DNA of 64,000 nucleotides, from NCBI GenBank assembly GCA_019637355.1, contig JAHBVT010000001.1, positions 2,635,192 through 2,699,191 of the forward strand. Direction: 5' to 3'. Position 1 is the stretch's first letter; the number at the start of each line of letters is the position of its first letter. The notes under the pieces are model-generated. The model did not search any database. It saw nothing but the letters and a program-made list of their open reading frames with translations, and was not told the origin of the DNA. Source of the stretch: Gemmatimonadaceae bacterium. GTDB lineage: Bacteria; Gemmatimonadota; Gemmatimonadetes; Gemmatimonadales; Gemmatimonadaceae. The translations under genes and the position numbers were made by a program. Positions 35,048-57,981 of the stretch are shown here, piece by piece.

Positions 35048-37783
35048 ATGCGTCTCCTCTTCGCCGCCCTGCTCCTCCTCGCCGCGCCGCTCTCCGCCCA
35101 GCACCCCTGGGACAACCCGCTGCGCGACGACGCCAAGTTCTCCTTCTACGACCGCGGGCCGTATCGCGAAAGCATCCCGCGGCCCGAGAGCATCCTCGGC
35201 TACAACGTCGGCAGCTGGCACACGCAGTACCACCTGCAGGAGCGGGTGCTGCTCGCCATCGCCGAGTTGGCCAAGGACCGGGTGCGCGTCGAGGAGATCG
35301 GCGTGAGCAACGAGCGCCGCACGATGCGCCTGTACATCGTGAGCGCGCCGGAGAACATCGCACGGCTCGATCAGATCCGCGCCGACCTCGACCGCATCGC
35401 CGACCCGCGTGGCGCCACGCAGGCTCAGATCGACGCTGTCATCGCCCGGACGCCGGCCGTGGTGTGGTTCTCGGGCTCGGTGCACGGCGACGAAGTCCCG
35501 GGCTTCGAGGCTTCGATGCAGTTGCTGTATCACTTCGCCGCGTCCAACGAACCGGCAACGCTCGAGCACCTGCGCAACGCCATCGTCATCATCAACCCCA
35601 GCTCCAATCCCGACGGCCACGAGCGCTTTGCGGTGTGGAGCAACTCGGTGGCGGTGGGCAGCCCGGAAGGCAGCAGCATCGAACAGCAGCGCGGCCAGCC
35701 CTGGGCCACGCGCGGGCGCTTCAATCACTACCGGTTCGATATGAACCGCGACCTGATGGCGATGACGCAGCGCGAGGTGCAGGCCATCGTCGGCGGGATG
35801 CTGCGCTGGCATCCGATGGTCACCGCCGACCTGCACGGCTACACCTCGACGTACTATATGGCCCCGGCGGCGCGGCCCATCAACACCAACATCTCCGGGT
35901 GGCCATACAAGTGGAGCGAGGCCATCGGCCGCGGCAACGCCGAGGCCTTCGATCGCTACGGCTGGCTGTACTTCGTCCGCGACGCTTTCGACCTCTACTA
36001 TCCCGGCTACTACGACTCCTGGCCCTCGCTGACCGGCGCGATGGGCACCACCTACGAGACCGACGGCGGCCCGGCGCTGCTGCAGTACCGCCGCGACGGC
36101 ACGCTGCTCTCGCTGCGCGACGGCATCAGCAAGCACTACGTCGCCAGCATCGCCACGCTCGAGACCTCGGCGGCGCGGGCGCGCGAGATGGTCCGCGACT
36201 ACGCCAGCTTCCGCCAGCGCGCCGTCACCGACGGCCGCAACGGCACGATGAAGCGCGTGGTCTTCGTGCCCGGCAGCGATCCGGCACGGGCCGCCGAGCT
36301 CGCCGCGGCGCTGCTGCGCGCCGGCGTCGAGGTCTCGCGCACGACCGCGCCCTTCACCAGCGCGCGCGCCGCCAGCTATACCGACGACGGCACGCGCTCG
36401 CGCAGCTTCCCCGCCGGCGCCTACGTCGTGGACCTCGCGCAGCCGCAGGGCCGCGTCGCCAAGGCCGTGCTCGAAGCCGACCCGGAACTCGATCCCGTGT
36501 TCGCCAAGGCGCAGGTCGATCGCTTCCAGCGCAACCAGCAGCGTTCGCGCGACGGCAATGACGGCGAGGGCTACGAGTTCTACGACATCTCCGCCTGGGC
36601 GCTGCCGGTAGCCTTCGGCGTCGAGGCGTACTGGACGGAAGACGCGCCGGCCGTGAACGGCACGCCGCTCTCGCTCGCCAACGGCACCACGCTCAACGGC
36701 GAAGTGCTGCCGCACGCAATCGCCAGCGGCATCGTCGAGGGCCGCGACGCACGCTCGGCGTTCCTGTGGCGCAACGATCGCAACGGCGCCGCCAAGCTCG
36801 CCGCGCAGCTGATGCAGCAGGGCCATCGCGTGGCCATCGCCTCCGAGCCCCTGCAGACCGGCGCCACCACCTGGCCGCGCGGCACCTGGATCGCGCGCGT
36901 CTCGCGCAACGAACCCACGCTCGCGGCGCGCCTCGATTCGCTCGCGCGACTCGCCGGCGTCGAGGTCCGCGGCGTCAACACCGCCTTCCCCGACGAAGCC
37001 CAGTACGGCACCGGCTCCTCGGTCGTGGTGGATCTCAAGACGCCGCGCATCGCCATCGTGTCTGAAGGCACCAGCCACACGAGCTACGGCGCCGTGTGGT
37101 GGTCCTTCGAGCAGCGCTACGGCATCCGCTTCACGCCCATCAGCGTGGACGCCTTGCGCGGCGACCTCTCGGCGTACAACGCCATCCTCGTGCCCAGCGG
37201 CAACCTCGGTAGCCTGGGCAACGGCGCCAACCTCAAGCGCTGGGTCGAGGGCGGCGGCGCGCTGGTGACCTTCGGCGCGGCCACCGCGTGGGCCACGCGC
37301 GAGGACGCCGGGCTCAGCTCCGTGCGTCGCATCCAGTGCGACGACAAGAAGATCGAGCCGGGCCGCGCGGCGCAGGCGCCGCTCGACTCGGTGCGCACCA
37401 CCGCGAGCCCCAACGCCTGCCCTGAACGGCTGGCCGACCTGCCGGGCTCGCACTTCGACGTCGTCCTCGACCTCACCAACTGGGTCACGCTCGGGATGGA
37501 GCGGCAGCGCCTGCCCGTGCTCGTCGGCGGCAGCAGCGTCTACTCCATCTCCAAGGACGGCGGCAACGTGGCCGTCTTCCCCACCAGCGGCACGCTGCGC
37601 CGCGGTGGGTTCACCTTCCCCGAGAATTCCGAGCGTCTCCTGCGCGGCAGCGCCTTCGTCGTGCAGGAGCGCGTGGGTCGCGGCAACGTCGTGATGTTCA
37701 CCAACGACCCGATGTTCCGCGGCTGGTGGAGGGCGCTGGACCGGATGGTGCTCAACGCCCTCCTGCTCGGCAGCTCGTTCTAG
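35048..37783 (+). CDS. Secreted M14-family zinc carboxypeptidase, large form
   Basis: The protein is 911 aa. A signal peptide (residues 1-18) precedes an M14 catalytic domain (about 50-400) with the HxxE zinc pair in GSVHGDEVPGFEA (His146, Glu149), NPSSNPDGHERF, and a third His in VTADLHGYTS. The C-terminal half (about 460-911) contains a class I glutamine-amidotransferase/ThuA-like Rossmann region (PRIAIVSEG, YNAILVPSGNLG, WVEGGGALVTFGAA). The gap before it (34883-35047) holds a TATCTT box at about 35002 and no gene. Its stop shares CTAG with the convergent PDZ gene. Confidence 0.88.
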   Translation: MRLLFAALLLLAAPLSAQHPWDNPLRDDAKFSFYDRGPYRESIPRPESILGYNVGSWHTQYHLQERVLLAIAELAKDRVRVEEIGVSNERRTMRLYIVSAPENIARLDQIRADLDRIADPRGATQAQIDAVIARTPAVVWFSGSVHGDEVPGFEASMQLLYHFAASNEPATLEHLRNAIVIINPSSNPDGHERFAVWSNSVAVGSPEGSSIEQQRGQPWATRGRFNHYRFDMNRDLMAMTQREVQAIVGGMLRWHPMVTADLHGYTSTYYMAPAARPINTNISGWPYKWSEAIGRGNAEAFDRYGWLYFVRDAFDLYYPGYYDSWPSLTGAMGTTYETDGGPALLQYRRDGTLLSLRDGISKHYVASIATLETSAARAREMVRDYASFRQRAVTDGRNGTMKRVVFVPGSDPARAAELAAALLRAGVEVSRTTAPFTSARAASYTDDGTRSRSFPAGAYVVDLAQPQGRVAKAVLEADPELDPVFAKAQVDRFQRNQQRSRDGNDGEGYEFYDISAWALPVAFGVEAYWTEDAPAVNGTPLSLANGTTLNGEVLPHAIASGIVEGRDARSAFLWRNDRNGAAKLAAQLMQQGHRVAIASEPLQTGATTWPRGTWIARVSRNEPTLAARLDSLARLAGVEVRGVNTAFPDEAQYGTGSSVVVDLKTPRIAIVSEGTSHTSYGAVWWSFEQRYGIRFTPISVDALRGDLSAYNAILVPSGNLGSLGNGANLKRWVEGGGALVTFGAATAWATREDAGLSSVRRIQCDDKKIEPGRAAQAPLDSVRTTASPNACPERLADLPGSHFDVVLDLTNWVTLGMERQRLPVLVGGSSVYSISKDGGNVAVFPTSGTLRRGGFTFPENSERLLRGSAFVVQERVGRGNVVMFTNDPMFRGWWRALDRMVLNALLLGSSF

Positions 37784-51880: not shown

Positions 51881-54307
51881 CTACTCCGCCCGCATCGCCA
51901 CCGCCGGGTCCGCCCGCGTCGCCCGCTGCGCCGGGATGAAGCAGGCCAGCGCCCCGGCTACACCGAGCGTCAACGCCACCGCGCTGAATACGATCGGATC
52001 CAGCGGCTGCACGTCGTAGAGGATGACCGTCAGCAACCGCGAGATGCCCGCCGCCAGCGCCAGCCCGAGCGCCATCCCGAGACCCAGCTGCCACGCGCCG
52101 CTGGAGAACACCAGCCGGATGACGCGGCCCGGCGACGAGCCCAGCGCCATCCGGATGCCCATCTCGCGCGTGCGCCGGCTCACGGCAAAGCTCATCACCG
52201 CGTACAGCCCGATGCTCGCGAGGAACAGCGCCACGAGCCCGAAGATCGCGAACATCGTGCCGAACACGCGGACGAACCACAACTGACGCGCGGCGGCCTC
52301 CCGCAAGGTCATCGGCCAATAGATGGGAATGTCGGGGTTTAGCGAGGCGACGGCCTCGCGTACACCCGGCGCCAACGACATCGGGTCGCCGGCGGTGCGC
52401 GCCGCGATGTACGCGAACTGCGGCCTTGCCTGCGCGAGTGGGCGCAGCAGCAGCGCCGGCCGCGGGTCCTCGGGGTCGCCGGCCATCACGTCGCCGAACA
52501 CGCCGACGATGGTCAGATATGGGTTCTGGTTCTCCGGCTGGATACCGCCGAGCTTCACGCGCTTGCCCAGCGCATCGCCATCGGGGAAGTGCTCGCGCAC
52601 GAAGCGCTCGTTCACGATCGCCACCGGCAGCGCGCCATCACGATCGGTATCGTCAATGCTCCGCCCCTGGCTCAACGGAATCTCCAGCGTCTTCAGGAAG
52701 TCCGACGACACCGAGCCGAGCCGCGTGCGCCCCACTTCGCTGCCTTCGTTGTACGTGCGGCCCTCGATCATCACGCCGTCCTGCCCGAAGCCCTGCTCCG
52801 CGCTCGGCAGCCCCGACGCCAACGCCGTCGCCTGCACGCCCGGGATCGCTGCCACACGCTCCGGTAACTGCTCCCAGAACGTCCGCTGCATCACCGTATC
52901 GGTGTACGACGACGGGAAGCCCACGCGCGACGTGAACACGCTTTCCATCGCGAAACCCGTATCGCGCGAGTTGGCCTTCACCACGCTCTTGATCATCAAG
53001 CCGGCCGCCACGAGCAGCCCGCAGGACAGCGAGATCTCGAACACCACCAGTGCCTTGCTGAGCTTGCCGATCTTCATCCCCGACGCGCCGCGCGACTCGT
53101 CCTTGAGGATCTCGGCGATGTCGCCCCGCGATGCCTGAAACGCGGGAATCAGGCCGGACATCAGCGCCGCGAGTAACGAGACGCCGATGGAGAACGCGAG
53201 GACGGGACCGTAGAGGTCGAAGGACAGGAAGAACGGCGGATTCGTATCCACGATCGCCCGCGTGAAAGCATCCAGGCCCACCTTCGCGACGATAATGCCG
53301 AGCACCGTGCCCAGGAGCGAGAGCACGAACGCTTCGGCCAGGAAGATCCGCACGATCTGTCCGCGCGAAGCGCCAAGCGCCGAACGCACGCCGACTTCCT
53401 TGGACCGGTGCGCCGCGCGGTCGAGCAAAAGGTTAGCCACGTTGGCACAGGCAATCAGCAGCACGAAGAACACCGCGCCAAGCATCGTGTACAGCAGGCC
53501 GGAGGCCTCATTGCCGATGAAAGCGCGCGTGAACTCCATCGCATAGGCCGAGAAGTCACGATTGGACTCCGGATAGTCCGCCGCCAGCCGTCCGTAGATG
53601 GTGGCCAGCTCGGCCGATGCAGCGTCGATGGACACCCCGGGCGCCAGCTTGCCGATGACGTTGACGTAGGGACCGTTGCCCCGCGCTGTCGCCAGCGGGT
53701 CGGTCTGCAACGGCAGCCACAGCTCGCCGTCATTCGGGAAGCGGAATCCTTCCGGCATCACGCCGATGATCTCGTAGGGCTCGCTGTTGACGCGCATCGT
53801 CTGACCGATCACCGATGGTGACCTGCCGAAGCGGTCGCGCCACATTGCATAGCCGAGGATCGCCACCCTGGGGCCACCCGGCGCGTCCTCGCCGGGCCGG
53901 AAGGTCCGCCCAATCGACGGCTGGATACCGGCCATCTCCAGCGCCCCGACCGTGATCCAAGTACCTGAGTAGCGTTCAGCGCGATCTTCGCCGGACACGT
54001 TCATCGTGCCGCTGGTGTAGGCCCCGAACTGCGTGAACGAGCGCTGCGCCTGGACCACGTCGGAGAAGTCGTGGATGGGTAGCGACTGCCGCGTGATGTT
54101 GTTGCGCGGGTTCGTCCTCCACACCGTGACGATCCGATCCCCGTCCTCGAAGGGCAGGCCCCGCATCAGCGCCCCGTAGACGATGCTGAACATCATCGTC
54201 GTGAGGCCGATGCCGAACATCAGCGCAATCGAAGCAACGATCGTGAGACCGGGGCTCTTGCGCAGGGTGCGCAATCCGAGGCTGATGTCGCGAATCCAAG
54301 AGGCCAT
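51881..54307 (-). CDS. ADOP-like duplicated FtsX/MacB ABC permease
   Basis: The protein is 808 aa, two MacB_PCD-FtsX units in tandem. TM1 SPGLTIVASIALMFGIGLTTMMFSIVYG is followed by a periplasmic domain, FtsX1 (LLIACANVANLLLDRAAHRSKEVGVRSALGASR), TM5 ALVVFEISLSCGLL, a second periplasmic domain and FtsX2 (YAVMSFAVSRRTREMGIRMALGSSPGRV). This build is frequent in Acidobacteria and Gemmatimonadota. No ATPase is adjacent. The 48 bases at 51833-51880 show only a 10-bp palindrome (AACCTAGGTT, 51863-51872). The substrate is unknown. Confidence 0.92.
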   Translation of the reverse strand: MASWIRDISLGLRTLRKSPGLTIVASIALMFGIGLTTMMFSIVYGALMRGLPFEDGDRIVTVWRTNPRNNITRQSLPIHDFSDVVQAQRSFTQFGAYTSGTMNVSGEDRAERYSGTWITVGALEMAGIQPSIGRTFRPGEDAPGGPRVAILGYAMWRDRFGRSPSVIGQTMRVNSEPYEIIGVMPEGFRFPNDGELWLPLQTDPLATARGNGPYVNVIGKLAPGVSIDAASAELATIYGRLAADYPESNRDFSAYAMEFTRAFIGNEASGLLYTMLGAVFFVLLIACANVANLLLDRAAHRSKEVGVRSALGASRGQIVRIFLAEAFVLSLLGTVLGIIVAKVGLDAFTRAIVDTNPPFFLSFDLYGPVLAFSIGVSLLAALMSGLIPAFQASRGDIAEILKDESRGASGMKIGKLSKALVVFEISLSCGLLVAAGLMIKSVVKANSRDTGFAMESVFTSRVGFPSSYTDTVMQRTFWEQLPERVAAIPGVQATALASGLPSAEQGFGQDGVMIEGRTYNEGSEVGRTRLGSVSSDFLKTLEIPLSQGRSIDDTDRDGALPVAIVNERFVREHFPDGDALGKRVKLGGIQPENQNPYLTIVGVFGDVMAGDPEDPRPALLLRPLAQARPQFAYIAARTAGDPMSLAPGVREAVASLNPDIPIYWPMTLREAAARQLWFVRVFGTMFAIFGLVALFLASIGLYAVMSFAVSRRTREMGIRMALGSSPGRVIRLVFSSGAWQLGLGMALGLALAAGISRLLTVILYDVQPLDPIVFSAVALTLGVAGALACFIPAQRATRADPAVAMRAE

Positions 54308-54434
54308 TGGGACGGGGTTGGGGCACCCGGGCCTACGGCAGGGGGTCGCGCACGGGTTTCAGGTCCTCGTGATTCGGGCCCAACGCCATCCCCCCGGCGG
54401 GCGTACACTTACTGTCCCTCACACCATTCCCACG
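54308..54434. promoter_or_regulatory. Divergent gap between permease and M14 pair
   Basis: This 127-base gap carries the promoters of the ADOP-like permease (-) and the M14 pair (+). It is GC-rich with no clear -35/-10 pair and no palindrome that I can support. Confidence 0.3.
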
Positions 54435-56135
54435 ATGCCACTCATCCGCTCGCTTGGCGTGCTCGCGTTGCTCGCGATGTTCGCCCTCCCGTCCGGCGCC
54501 CAAGGGCGTCCCACCGACGGGTACCACAGCGCCGCCCGGCTCGGCGCCGTCCTCGACTCCATCGCGCGCAGCAAGCCGAGCCTCGTGAAGGTCTCGGTGC
54601 TCGCCACCTCGCCCGGCCGACGCCCGGTGCATCTCGTGCGCCTCGGCGGCGCCGAAGAGAAGCCCGCGTTGCTCGTGCTCGCCGGCGCCTACGGCCCGCA
54701 GATCAGCTCCTCCGAGGTCGCCCTGCGCATCGTGCGCGACCTCGCGCGGCGCCACGGCAGCGACCAGGCCGTCACGCAGCTCCTCGCCAGCAACACCGTG
54801 TACGTCATCCCGCGGATGAACCCCGATGCCAGCGAGGCCTTCTTCGGCGCGCTGCGCTGGGAGCGCAAGGGCAACGAGTCGCCATTCGACGACGACCGCG
54901 ATATGGCCGACGACGAAGACGGCCCCGATGACCTCAACGGCGACGGCCTCATCACGATGATGCGCGTGAAGGCCGCTGACGGCGAATGGATTCCCGACGC
55001 CGTCGATCCGGCGCTGATGCGTCGCGCCGACCGCACCAAGGGCGAACGCGGCATCTACCGCATCCTCGTCGAAGGCCGTGACAACGACAACGACGGCGAG
55101 TACAACGAGGACGCGGCGGGCGGCACCGACATCTCGCGCAACTTCGCCAACAACTATCGCTTCTTCTCCGAGAACGCCGGCCTGCACCCGTTCTCGGCCG
55201 AGGAGTCGCGGGCGGTGGCCGAGTTCGTGAGCACGCACGACCACATCGCTGCCGTGTACGTGCTCGGGATGCAGGACAACCTGCTGAAGCCCTGGGAAGG
55301 CCGTCGCGTCCCGGGCATCGGCGGGGCGCCGCAGGGCACCTCGGCCGGCGGACCGCTCACGGCCTCGCTGCCCGAGGACAACGGCTGGTTCAATGAAGTG
55401 TCGCGCCGCTTCAAGGCGACCACGGGCTGGAGCGAAGGCCCGGCCAGCGCCGCCGATCAGGGCGATCCGCTGTCCTGGGCCTACTTCCATATGGGACGCT
55501 TCGCCTTCGGCTCGCGCGTGTGGTGGCCGGGCAAGGCGCCGGCAGATACCGCCGCTGGCCGTCGCGCCCCGTCCCCCGACCCGCTGGCGACCGAACGCAA
55601 CGACTACCGCTGGGTGAAAGCCAACCGACCCAACGGATTCGTGGAATGGACGCCCGTGTCGGGCTTCACGATTGATGGCGAGGCCGTGGAGGTCGGCGGC
55701 TTCGCGCCCTTCGCGCTGCTCAATCCGCTCGGCAGCGAACTCGACAGCCTCTCCGCCAAGCACACGGCTTTCGTCGTGGAGCTCACCGGACTGCTCCCCA
55801 AGGTCACCGCGCCGCGCGTGACCGTCACCGAAGTCGGCCCGCGCGTCTATCGCATCCAGGCCATCGTGCAGAACGACGGCTACCTGCCGAGCAACGCCGC
55901 CATCGGCGTGCGCTCGCGCCTGCCGCACCGCGTGCGCGTGGAGATGCGCCTCGGTCGCGACCAGCAGATGAGCGGCGGCCGCCCGATGAACTTCATCGGC
56001 GCGCTGCCGGGCAGTGGCGGCACCCAGACCTTCGAGTGGGTCATCGTCGGTGCACCAAACTCCACCGTGACCCTGACCGTGGGCTCGCCCCACGCCGGGC
56101 TCACCACCCAGACCATCACCCTCCGCGCGAGGTAA
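54435..56135 (+). CDS. M14-family pseudopeptidase (zinc ligands lost)
   Basis: The protein is 566 aa. A signal peptide (residues 1-22) precedes an M14-like fold aligned to the gene immediately downstream. Where M14 enzymes have HxxE, this protein reads AGAYGPQISS (Tyr86, Gln89), and the third His position falls in VYVLGMQDN. All three zinc ligands are therefore missing, while the substrate-contact Arg-Asn (SRN, 234-236) is kept. It carries Asp-rich loops (DDLNGDGLIT, 165-174; DNDNDGEYNED, 216-226) that look like calcium sites. It is probably a binding partner of the active neighbour. Confidence 0.82.
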   Translation: MPLIRSLGVLALLAMFALPSGAQGRPTDGYHSAARLGAVLDSIARSKPSLVKVSVLATSPGRRPVHLVRLGGAEEKPALLVLAGAYGPQISSSEVALRIVRDLARRHGSDQAVTQLLASNTVYVIPRMNPDASEAFFGALRWERKGNESPFDDDRDMADDEDGPDDLNGDGLITMMRVKAADGEWIPDAVDPALMRRADRTKGERGIYRILVEGRDNDNDGEYNEDAAGGTDISRNFANNYRFFSENAGLHPFSAEESRAVAEFVSTHDHIAAVYVLGMQDNLLKPWEGRRVPGIGGAPQGTSAGGPLTASLPEDNGWFNEVSRRFKATTGWSEGPASAADQGDPLSWAYFHMGRFAFGSRVWWPGKAPADTAAGRRAPSPDPLATERNDYRWVKANRPNGFVEWTPVSGFTIDGEAVEVGGFAPFALLNPLGSELDSLSAKHTAFVVELTGLLPKVTAPRVTVTEVGPRVYRIQAIVQNDGYLPSNAAIGVRSRLPHRVRVEMRLGRDQQMSGGRPMNFIGALPGSGGTQTFEWVIVGAPNSTVTLTVGSPHAGLTTQTITLRAR

Positions 56136-56142
56136 GCGACCG

Positions 56143-57981
56143 ATGCCATTCGTTCGCCGTGTTTCGACCGCACCGCGCGTCGGTGCCTATCTGATGGCGG
56201 CGTTGCTCGCCGTCGCCCCGCTGGCCCTCGAAGCCCAGCGCATCCGTACCGCGCCGCCGCCGGTGCGGGCCACGCAGCCTCCGGTGGCCGGCGCGCTCGC
56301 CGCGCTTGGCTCGCCGCCGAACCCCAAGGTGGCCGTGAGCTGGGATCGCTTCTACGACCACGCCGGCCTGATGGAGATCGGCCGCCGGCTCGCGGCCGCG
56401 CACCCCGGCTTCATCAAAATGGGCAGCATCGGCCAGAGCACGCAGGGCCGCGATATGTTCCTGCTCACCGTCACCAACTTCTCCGTCGGCGACGCCGACA
56501 AGAAGCCGGCGATGTGGATCGACGGCAACATCCACGCCAACGAGATCCAGGGCGCCGAGTTCTCGCTGTACACGGCTTGGTACCTGGCCGAGATGGCCGA
56601 TCGCGTGCCGGCCGTGGACTCGCTGCTGCGCAACTACACGCTGTACATCGTGCCCAGCATCAATCCCGACGGGCGCGACCACTACATCCACGAAGCCAAC
56701 AACGCGAGCTCGCCGCGCACGGGCCTCGCCCCGCGCGACACCGACCACGACGGCAAGGTGGACGAGGACGGCCTCGACGACCTCAACGGCGACGGCCACA
56801 TCACGCAGATGCGCCGCCGCAATCCCAACGGCCGCTGGCGCGTGAGCCCGGAAGATCCTCGCCTGCTGGTTCCGATCCTGCCCGGCGAGCAGGGCGAGTA
56901 CGACCTGCTCGGCGCCGAAGGCTACGACAACGACGGCGACGGCTTCGTGAACGAGGACGGCCCCGGCGTCTACGACCCGAACCGCAACTGGCCCTGGCGC
57001 TGGGCGCCGCAGTACGTGCAGGGCGGCGCGGACCGTTATCCCGGTTCGCTGGTCGAGACGCGCAACATTATGGATTTCGTCATCAAGCACCCCAACATCG
57101 CGGGCGCGCAGAGCTACCACAACAGCGGCGGAATGCTGCTGCGCGGCCCCGGCGTGCCGCAGGACGAGTACCGCCCGCAGGACGTACAGGTCTTCGACCA
57201 GCTCGGCCGCGTCGGCGAGGAGATCCTGCCCGGCTACCGCTATATGATCGTCTGGAAGGACCTCTACACCGTGTGGGGCGGCGAGCTCGACTGGTTCTAT
57301 GGCGCGCGCGGCATCCTCACGTTCTCCAACGAGCTGTGGACGCCGTTCCTGTACTTCTATCGCCAGGCCGGCGGCGGGGGCGGCGGCTTCGGCGGCGGCA
57401 ACCCGCAGAACCGCCAGTTCCAGACCACCGAGTCGCGCTTCAATCGCCTGCTGCTGATGGGCGAGGCCTTCGTCGAGTGGACCGAGGTGGACCACCCGCA
57501 GTTCGGGAAGGTCGAGGTCGGCGGCTACAAGAAGAACTTCGGCCGCGTCGAGCCTGGCTTTATGCTCCAGAGCGACGGGCATCGCAATATGATGTTCACG
57601 CTCTACCAGACCTCGCAGATGCCGCTGGTCGAGGTGGACTCCGTGACCACGCGCGCACTGGGCAACGGCCTCACCGAGGTGACGGCCGTGGTGGTGAATC
57701 GCCGCCTCGCGCCGACGCACACGCAGCAGGATCTTGAGAACCGCATCTCGCGTCCGAATGTCATCAGCATCAGCGGCGGCCGCGTGATCTCGGGCTTCAC
57801 CATCGACGATCCGCTGCAGGGCCACTCGACGGAGCAGAAGGTGAATCCGGCGAGCATCCGCGTGGCGAACATTCCCGGCAACGGGATCGTGCGCGTGAAG
57901 TGGATCGTCCAGGGTACCGGGCCGTTCACCGTGACCGCGGATTCGCAGAAGGGCGGGAGTTCGACGCGGCGGTCGCGGTAG
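56143..57981 (+). CDS. Secreted M14-family zinc carboxypeptidase with EF-hand-like loops
   Basis: The protein is 612 aa. A signal region ends near residue 31. The zinc pair HANE (His131, Glu134), the third ligand His326 in AQSYHNSGGM, the DPNRNW substrate site (Arg281) and the probable catalytic Glu397 (FSNELW) are all present. Asp-rich insertions at 200-220 (DHDGKVDEDG, DDLNGDGHIT) and 261-272 (YDNDGDGFVNED) resemble dockerin/EF-hand calcium loops. A Gly run (GGGGGGFGGG) lies near 407-416 and a C-terminal Ig-like domain at about 510-600. It is 7 bases after the pseudopeptidase gene. Confidence 0.9.
   Translation: MPFVRRVSTAPRVGAYLMAALLAVAPLALEAQRIRTAPPPVRATQPPVAGALAALGSPPNPKVAVSWDRFYDHAGLMEIGRRLAAAHPGFIKMGSIGQSTQGRDMFLLTVTNFSVGDADKKPAMWIDGNIHANEIQGAEFSLYTAWYLAEMADRVPAVDSLLRNYTLYIVPSINPDGRDHYIHEANNASSPRTGLAPRDTDHDGKVDEDGLDDLNGDGHITQMRRRNPNGRWRVSPEDPRLLVPILPGEQGEYDLLGAEGYDNDGDGFVNEDGPGVYDPNRNWPWRWAPQYVQGGADRYPGSLVETRNIMDFVIKHPNIAGAQSYHNSGGMLLRGPGVPQDEYRPQDVQVFDQLGRVGEEILPGYRYMIVWKDLYTVWGGELDWFYGARGILTFSNELWTPFLYFYRQAGGGGGGFGGGNPQNRQFQTTESRFNRLLLMGEAFVEWTEVDHPQFGKVEVGGYKKNFGRVEPGFMLQSDGHRNMMFTLYQTSQMPLVEVDSVTTRALGNGLTEVTAVVVNRRLAPTHTQQDLENRISRPNVISISGGRVISGFTIDDPLQGHSTEQKVNPASIRVANIPGNGIVRVKWIVQGTGPFTVTADSQKGGSSTRRSR

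Follow-up and report, generated by a model that had tools for sequence, protein, structure and literature searches.

Two adjoining genes on the forward strand of the window (the whole stretch of 64,000 nucleotides of Gemmatimonadaceae DNA that was analysed) encode homologous proteins of the M14 peptidase family. The upstream gene (54435..56135, +) encodes P0001, an M14 pseudo-carboxypeptidase of 566 aa, and the downstream gene (56143..57981, +) encodes P0002, an active-type M14 carboxypeptidase of 612 aa. The spacer between the P0001 stop codon and the P0002 ATG is 7 bp (56136..56142, +), the same as the family median. A signal-peptide-like stretch is present at the N-terminus of each protein. 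The Pfam profile PF00246 (cut-off 21.6 bits) scores 127.1 bits with P0002 and 78.8 bits with P0001; the latter is the weaker M14 match of the pair and is still well over the cut-off, and PF00246 is the sole domain that Pfam profiles detect in P0001. The original prediction held that the two proteins align through the M14 domain, which is borne out by an alignment over almost the full length (BLASTP E value of 2e-36 with 26% identity; profile-profile E value of 3.7e-98 across 513 columns). P0001 is also predicted to retain the M14 fold. The AlphaFold model of P0001 (mean pLDDT 91.2, pTM 0.91) has carboxypeptidase T as its best PDB match (E value of 1.5e-16), the model of P0002 (mean pLDDT 84.7, pTM 0.86) matches the same enzyme (E value of 4e-19), and both models match carboxypeptidases T and A.

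The host genome is 3.15 Mb, of Gemmatimonadaceae type, and contains eight M14 loci; another M14 match within the window lies at about 35249-35854 (+), inside a 981-codon frame. A MacB/FtsX-type permease gene (51881-54307, -) is transcribed divergently from P0001, and the genes 3' of P0002 (58061-60003, +) encode an ABC ATPase and an ABC-2 type permease. The family neighbour survey showed that neither the permease gene nor the ABC genes are kept beside the pair at other loci. Antisense open reading frames of 586 and 569 aa run over the two genes (54333-56093, - and 56116-57825, -) and look like GC-rich shadow frames.

Catalytic and substrate-binding positions

P0002 has the sequence expected of an active M14 enzyme, with the zinc motif HxxE and the third His (H131, E134 and H326), the catalytic Glu (E397) and the R127-, N144- and R145-type residues (R192, N280 and R281), each of which is found in 55/55 members of the active group. 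The residues of P0001 that align on H131, E134, H326 and E397 are Y86, Q89, G278 and R361. YGPQ (residues 86-89; 54690..54701, +) replaces the HxxE zinc motif, and GMQDN (residues 278-282; 55266..55280, +) places G278 at the third zinc-His position, followed by the dead-group signature [D/N]281-N282. The four P0002 residues had all been assigned correctly in advance, as had Tyr86, Gln89 and the missing third His of P0001. The loss of the catalytic Glu, where the alignment puts R361 (55515..55517, +), goes beyond the earlier claim and makes the observation stronger than it was then stated. The pocket columns are without a conserved His, and from the sequence no alternative complete zinc site appears to exist in P0001.

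The Arg-Asn substrate site was predicted to be kept in P0001. This is true of the Arg145-type residue (R235) but not of the Asn144-type residue, which is now Ser (S234), such that S234-R235-N236 of P0001 stands against N280-R281-N282 of P0002. The equivalent of R192 is either R144 or K145, as the alignment has a two-residue gap at this point. Retained substrate contacts are not a property of the family, because the Asn of P0001 is replaced by Ser and the Arg145-type residue is found in only 73/125 of the dead copies described below (120/120 partners have it), the remainder having K, I, Q, L or A, among other residues.

Conservation of the pair in three phyla

Relatives were sought with a profile of the upstream protein in 395 genomes each of Gemmatimonadota and Bacteroidota (the latter sampled as the phylum to which a Prolixibacteraceae genome belongs) and in 247 genomes of a further phylum, which includes 'Bacterium isolate GSL_GB14_3'. 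The regions of the matches were retrieved and the catalytic columns were scored from alignments. A scan of genome contigs with a single protein returned three loci only; the profile proved much more sensitive and identified 125 relatives of P0001 (referred to here as dead copies) over the three phyla. None of the 125 has the full catalytic set HEHE, which is present in 117/117 fully readable adjacent partners, and the loss of these residues is therefore not due to chance. The remaining three of 120 partners are incomplete reading frames in which one or two of the catalytic positions are gapped.

The most frequent residues at the four positions in the dead group are E, H, G and P; thus, the zinc motif is often inverted from HxxE to ExxH, with Glu at the first ligand position in 76/125 dead copies and His at the second in 83/125. 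The third-His position is Gly or Ser in 121/125, and 119/125 dead copies have P, D, R or Q where the active group has the catalytic Glu. P0001 and its close relatives do not have ExxH; they read YQGR at the four positions. A pattern match to GSSHALE suggested a surviving HxxE in three genomes (G124, G130 and G081), but the alignment puts Glu and Gln at the ligand columns and this candidate was rejected. Dead copies in the clades of L040:5992-8013 and L041:5983-7971 have an additional insert, some 60 residues long (SLDEVEKMSGDEFVALGEEKI...), that is absent from P0001. The other M14 paralogues recovered in the search have HEHE except for two with DEHE (L112:4919-6763, - and L132:4307-6439, +). 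These form a group marked by GGIDADE in which Asp replaces the first zinc His while the remaining three residues of HEHE are intact, and the group branches beside the active partners.

Pairing is conserved in the related genomes together with ligand loss: at 120 of the 125 loci, in three phyla, the dead and the active gene directly adjoin in that order on the same strand. The distance from the stop codon of the dead copy to the ATG of the nearest partner is at most 30 bp in 95% of measurable pairs. The survey yielded 113 pairs in which both proteins are full-length. The five dead copies that are not adjacent to a partner were considered as candidates for a dead copy that exists alone, and were rejected. 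Four are at contig ends (G372, G319, G902 and G1054), and the fifth is in a Bacteroidota genome (G610) that has the dead and active genes on different contigs. The pair is therefore retained together in G610 even when not adjacent.

The converse search gave a similar picture. When the same 395 Gemmatimonadota genomes were searched with a profile (A3) built from the active partner, 48 had the active gene, and the dead copy is present in 48/48, including two genomes (G241 and G296) where a contig end truncates it. In two further Gemmatimonadota genomes the dead copy lies at the end of a contig and no partner was found. The active partner occurs in 37 Bacteroidota genomes and the dead copy in 36 of these (34 from the dead-copy profile search plus G534 and G744); in the 37th, G553, the contig begins at the partner. 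In G534 the dead copy is split in two frames and is followed by two active-type copies (L274), and in G744 the dead copy is cut by the contig end and is likewise followed by two active-type copies (L275). Thus, the four genomes that might have had an active partner without a dead copy (G241, G296, G534 and G744) were rejected as such. In the middle copy of G744 (L275:499-2229), Leu takes the place of the third zinc His. A possible third member of the operon was also rejected, as the flanking reading-frame clusters represent antisense shadows or local synteny, and their comparison across the family revealed no conserved neighbour besides the pair.

Selection on the dead copy and its possible role

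The dead and active groups each form one clade (SH-aLRT 100) in a tree of 81 proteins and 526 columns, although this is a quick tree with some long dead-group branches in which the relative placement of the groups is not certain. Trees of the dead and active proteins from 92 pairs have a distance correlation of 0.90 (the permuted maximum is 0.11) and have 61/89 splits in common, including clades that mix phyla. Joint transfer of the pair is therefore suggested. These sequence comparisons are consistent with a pair that moves together between lineages, with species history in common also contributing to the agreement of the trees. In ten close comparisons (Nei-Gojobori; some dS values are high) dN/dS ranged from 0.04 to 0.41 in the dead copy and from 0.01 to 0.26 in the active copy, and mean pairwise identity is 35% in the dead group versus 47% in the active group. 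The dead copy is under purifying selection, yet it evolves faster than the active copy.

The columns that have been kept and those that have been relaxed differ in kind. The same residue is conserved in both groups at 45 columns, which include fold glycines and an acidic insert at about residues 152-226 of P0001 (DDDRDMADDEDGPDDLNGDG ... RDNDNDGEYNED; 54888..55112, +). The conserved acidic residues of P0001 (D152, D154, D156, E161, D162, D166, D216, D218, D220, E225 and D226) are at positions conserved in both groups, and their D-x-D-x-D pattern resembles that of Ca-binding loops. An additional 39 columns are conserved in at least 95% of the active group and relaxed in the dead group, including the zinc, catalytic and carboxylate-binding positions. 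Selection is therefore not preserving peptide binding via the ancestral pocket; the pattern of columns indicates that the scaffold is preserved, and a scaffold, subunit or regulatory role fits P0001 better. The original prediction of a peptide-binding or regulatory partner is supported with respect to the partner role, which is favored by near-perfect co-occurrence and operon-like spacing, but not with respect to peptide binding via the ancestral pocket.

The faster evolution of the dead group would be expected if P0001 were a decaying duplicate with no function. However, the dead copies form a single clade that has retained an open frame in three phyla, dN/dS is below 0.42 in all close comparisons, and 45 columns are still identical to those of the active group. 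Since the pair recurs side by side at about 120 loci in three phyla, the dead copy has been kept and is not a decaying duplicate; decay is excluded at the level of the family and is very improbable for P0001 itself. The frequent ExxH raises the question of whether the wider dead family has acquired a new metal site (ExxH plus an Asp or Asn near the third position) that supports another metal or activity and was lost from the YxxQ lineage of the window. The prevalence of His at the second ligand position and of Glu at the first, and the common combination of E86-H89 with D/N281, are in keeping with this proposal. It is nonetheless improbable, given that Gly or Ser has replaced the third His and P, D, R or Q the catalytic Glu almost throughout, and that the Glu and His are not universal. 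Judged from sequence, an alternative metal site is possible for the ExxH members and not for P0001.

The main rival to the subunit model is that P0001 independently binds a ligand (a peptide, a peptidoglycan stem or other molecule) through a remodelled pocket and acts in the pathway of P0002 without forming a complex. Several residues conserved in the dead group alone lie near the old pocket, namely N147 (95%; Gly in partners), P425, [D/N]281 (55/55) and N282 (85%), the latter two being GG in partners. The Arg145-type residue that remains in 73/125 dead copies and the precedent of domain III of carboxypeptidase D (CPD-III), a dead M14 domain that binds a viral envelope protein (PMC11266112), also agree with ligand binding. 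On the other hand, the residues at and around position 86 vary (E, K, S, Y, F, D, H and A), the Arg145-type column is relaxed, most columns conserved only in the active group have drifted, and the near-perfect dependence on the active partner exceeds what a shared pathway would need. An independent ligand binder is thus rather unlikely.

The dead copy is probably a non-catalytic partner of the enzyme. More specifically, P0001 is somewhat likely to be dedicated to the zinc carboxypeptidase P0002 as its non-catalytic subunit, and would form a hetero-complex with it. The two proteins would be produced from one short operon and both exported, P0002 would carry out zinc-dependent removal of C-terminal residues, and P0001, with its carboxypeptidase fold and acidic, probably Ca-stabilised insert, would be a scaffold for P0002, binding it and assisting its folding, its stability or its recognition of substrates. 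Several considerations count against a subunit. Agreement of the trees is also expected from a common species history, and the co-occurrence of adjacent genes is explained in part by their being inherited or transferred jointly. Proteins of the same pathway that make no contact can be united in a conserved operon, and the dead copy evolves faster, with dN/dS up to 0.41.

Comparison with other pseudopeptidases and two-chain peptidases

M14 pseudopeptidases listed in a 2024 review of metallopeptidase pseudoenzymes are the vertebrate proteins AEBP1, CPXM1, CPXM2 and CPD-III and the yeast protein Ecm14; their mode of action is mostly unknown, and no bacterial example is included (PMC11266112). Searches of a collection of mainly open-access papers found none either. 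Like P0001, the eukaryotic proteins (AEBP1/ACLP, CPXM1, CPXM2, CPD-III and Ecm14) have the M14 fold and have lost zinc and/or catalytic residues; P0001 has lost all four catalytic positions. The eukaryotic proteins possess a discoidin domain, a pro-domain or tandem carboxypeptidase units, none of which is present in P0001. CPD-III adjoins M14 domains that are active, and its supposed role is to assist these or to present substrates (PMC11266112), but it shares a chain with its active partners whereas the partner of P0001 is encoded by a separate bacterial gene and P0001 has an acidic insert. Automatic annotation with PF00246 labels the dead copies zinc carboxypeptidases despite the loss of every catalytic residue, and such labels should be treated with caution.

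The best solved fold for both P0001 and P0002 is carboxypeptidase T of Thermoactinomyces vulgaris, a bacterial M14 zinc enzyme. It is a single active enzyme whose solved chain of about 323 residues is without the acidic insert or the C-terminal region of P0001 and P0002, and it is not known to have a dead partner.

Homologous two-chain pairs are found among the bacterial and mitochondrial M16B peptidases, including MPP alpha/beta, SPH2681/SPH2682, TTHA1264/TTHA1265 and AlbF/AlbE. The alpha subunit of MPP is without a zinc motif and is still essential, and TTHA1264 and TTHA1265 are encoded by neighbouring genes (PMC12731061). M16B is another peptidase family with another fold (the HXXEH clam shell), while P0001 and P0002 both belong to M14. 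Furthermore, the M16B hetero-complex has been shown by crystallography, whereas a complex of P0001 and P0002 is suggested by co-occurrence, gene order and spacing. The dead/active pairs of M16B (for example MPP and SPH2681/SPH2682) provide the best working analogy. A dead copy that is co-inherited with its live partner in bacteria offers a simple system in which to ask if a peptidase that has lost its activity can function as a subunit of its live relative. There is about an even chance that the pair represents a widespread, undescribed two-chain bacterial M14 carboxypeptidase, whose catalytic chain has an obligate dead homologue as its second chain, the two being kept and transferred together in three or more phyla, which would make the dead copies the first bacterial M14 pseudopeptidase family and the pair an independent M14 counterpart of the M16B heterodimers.
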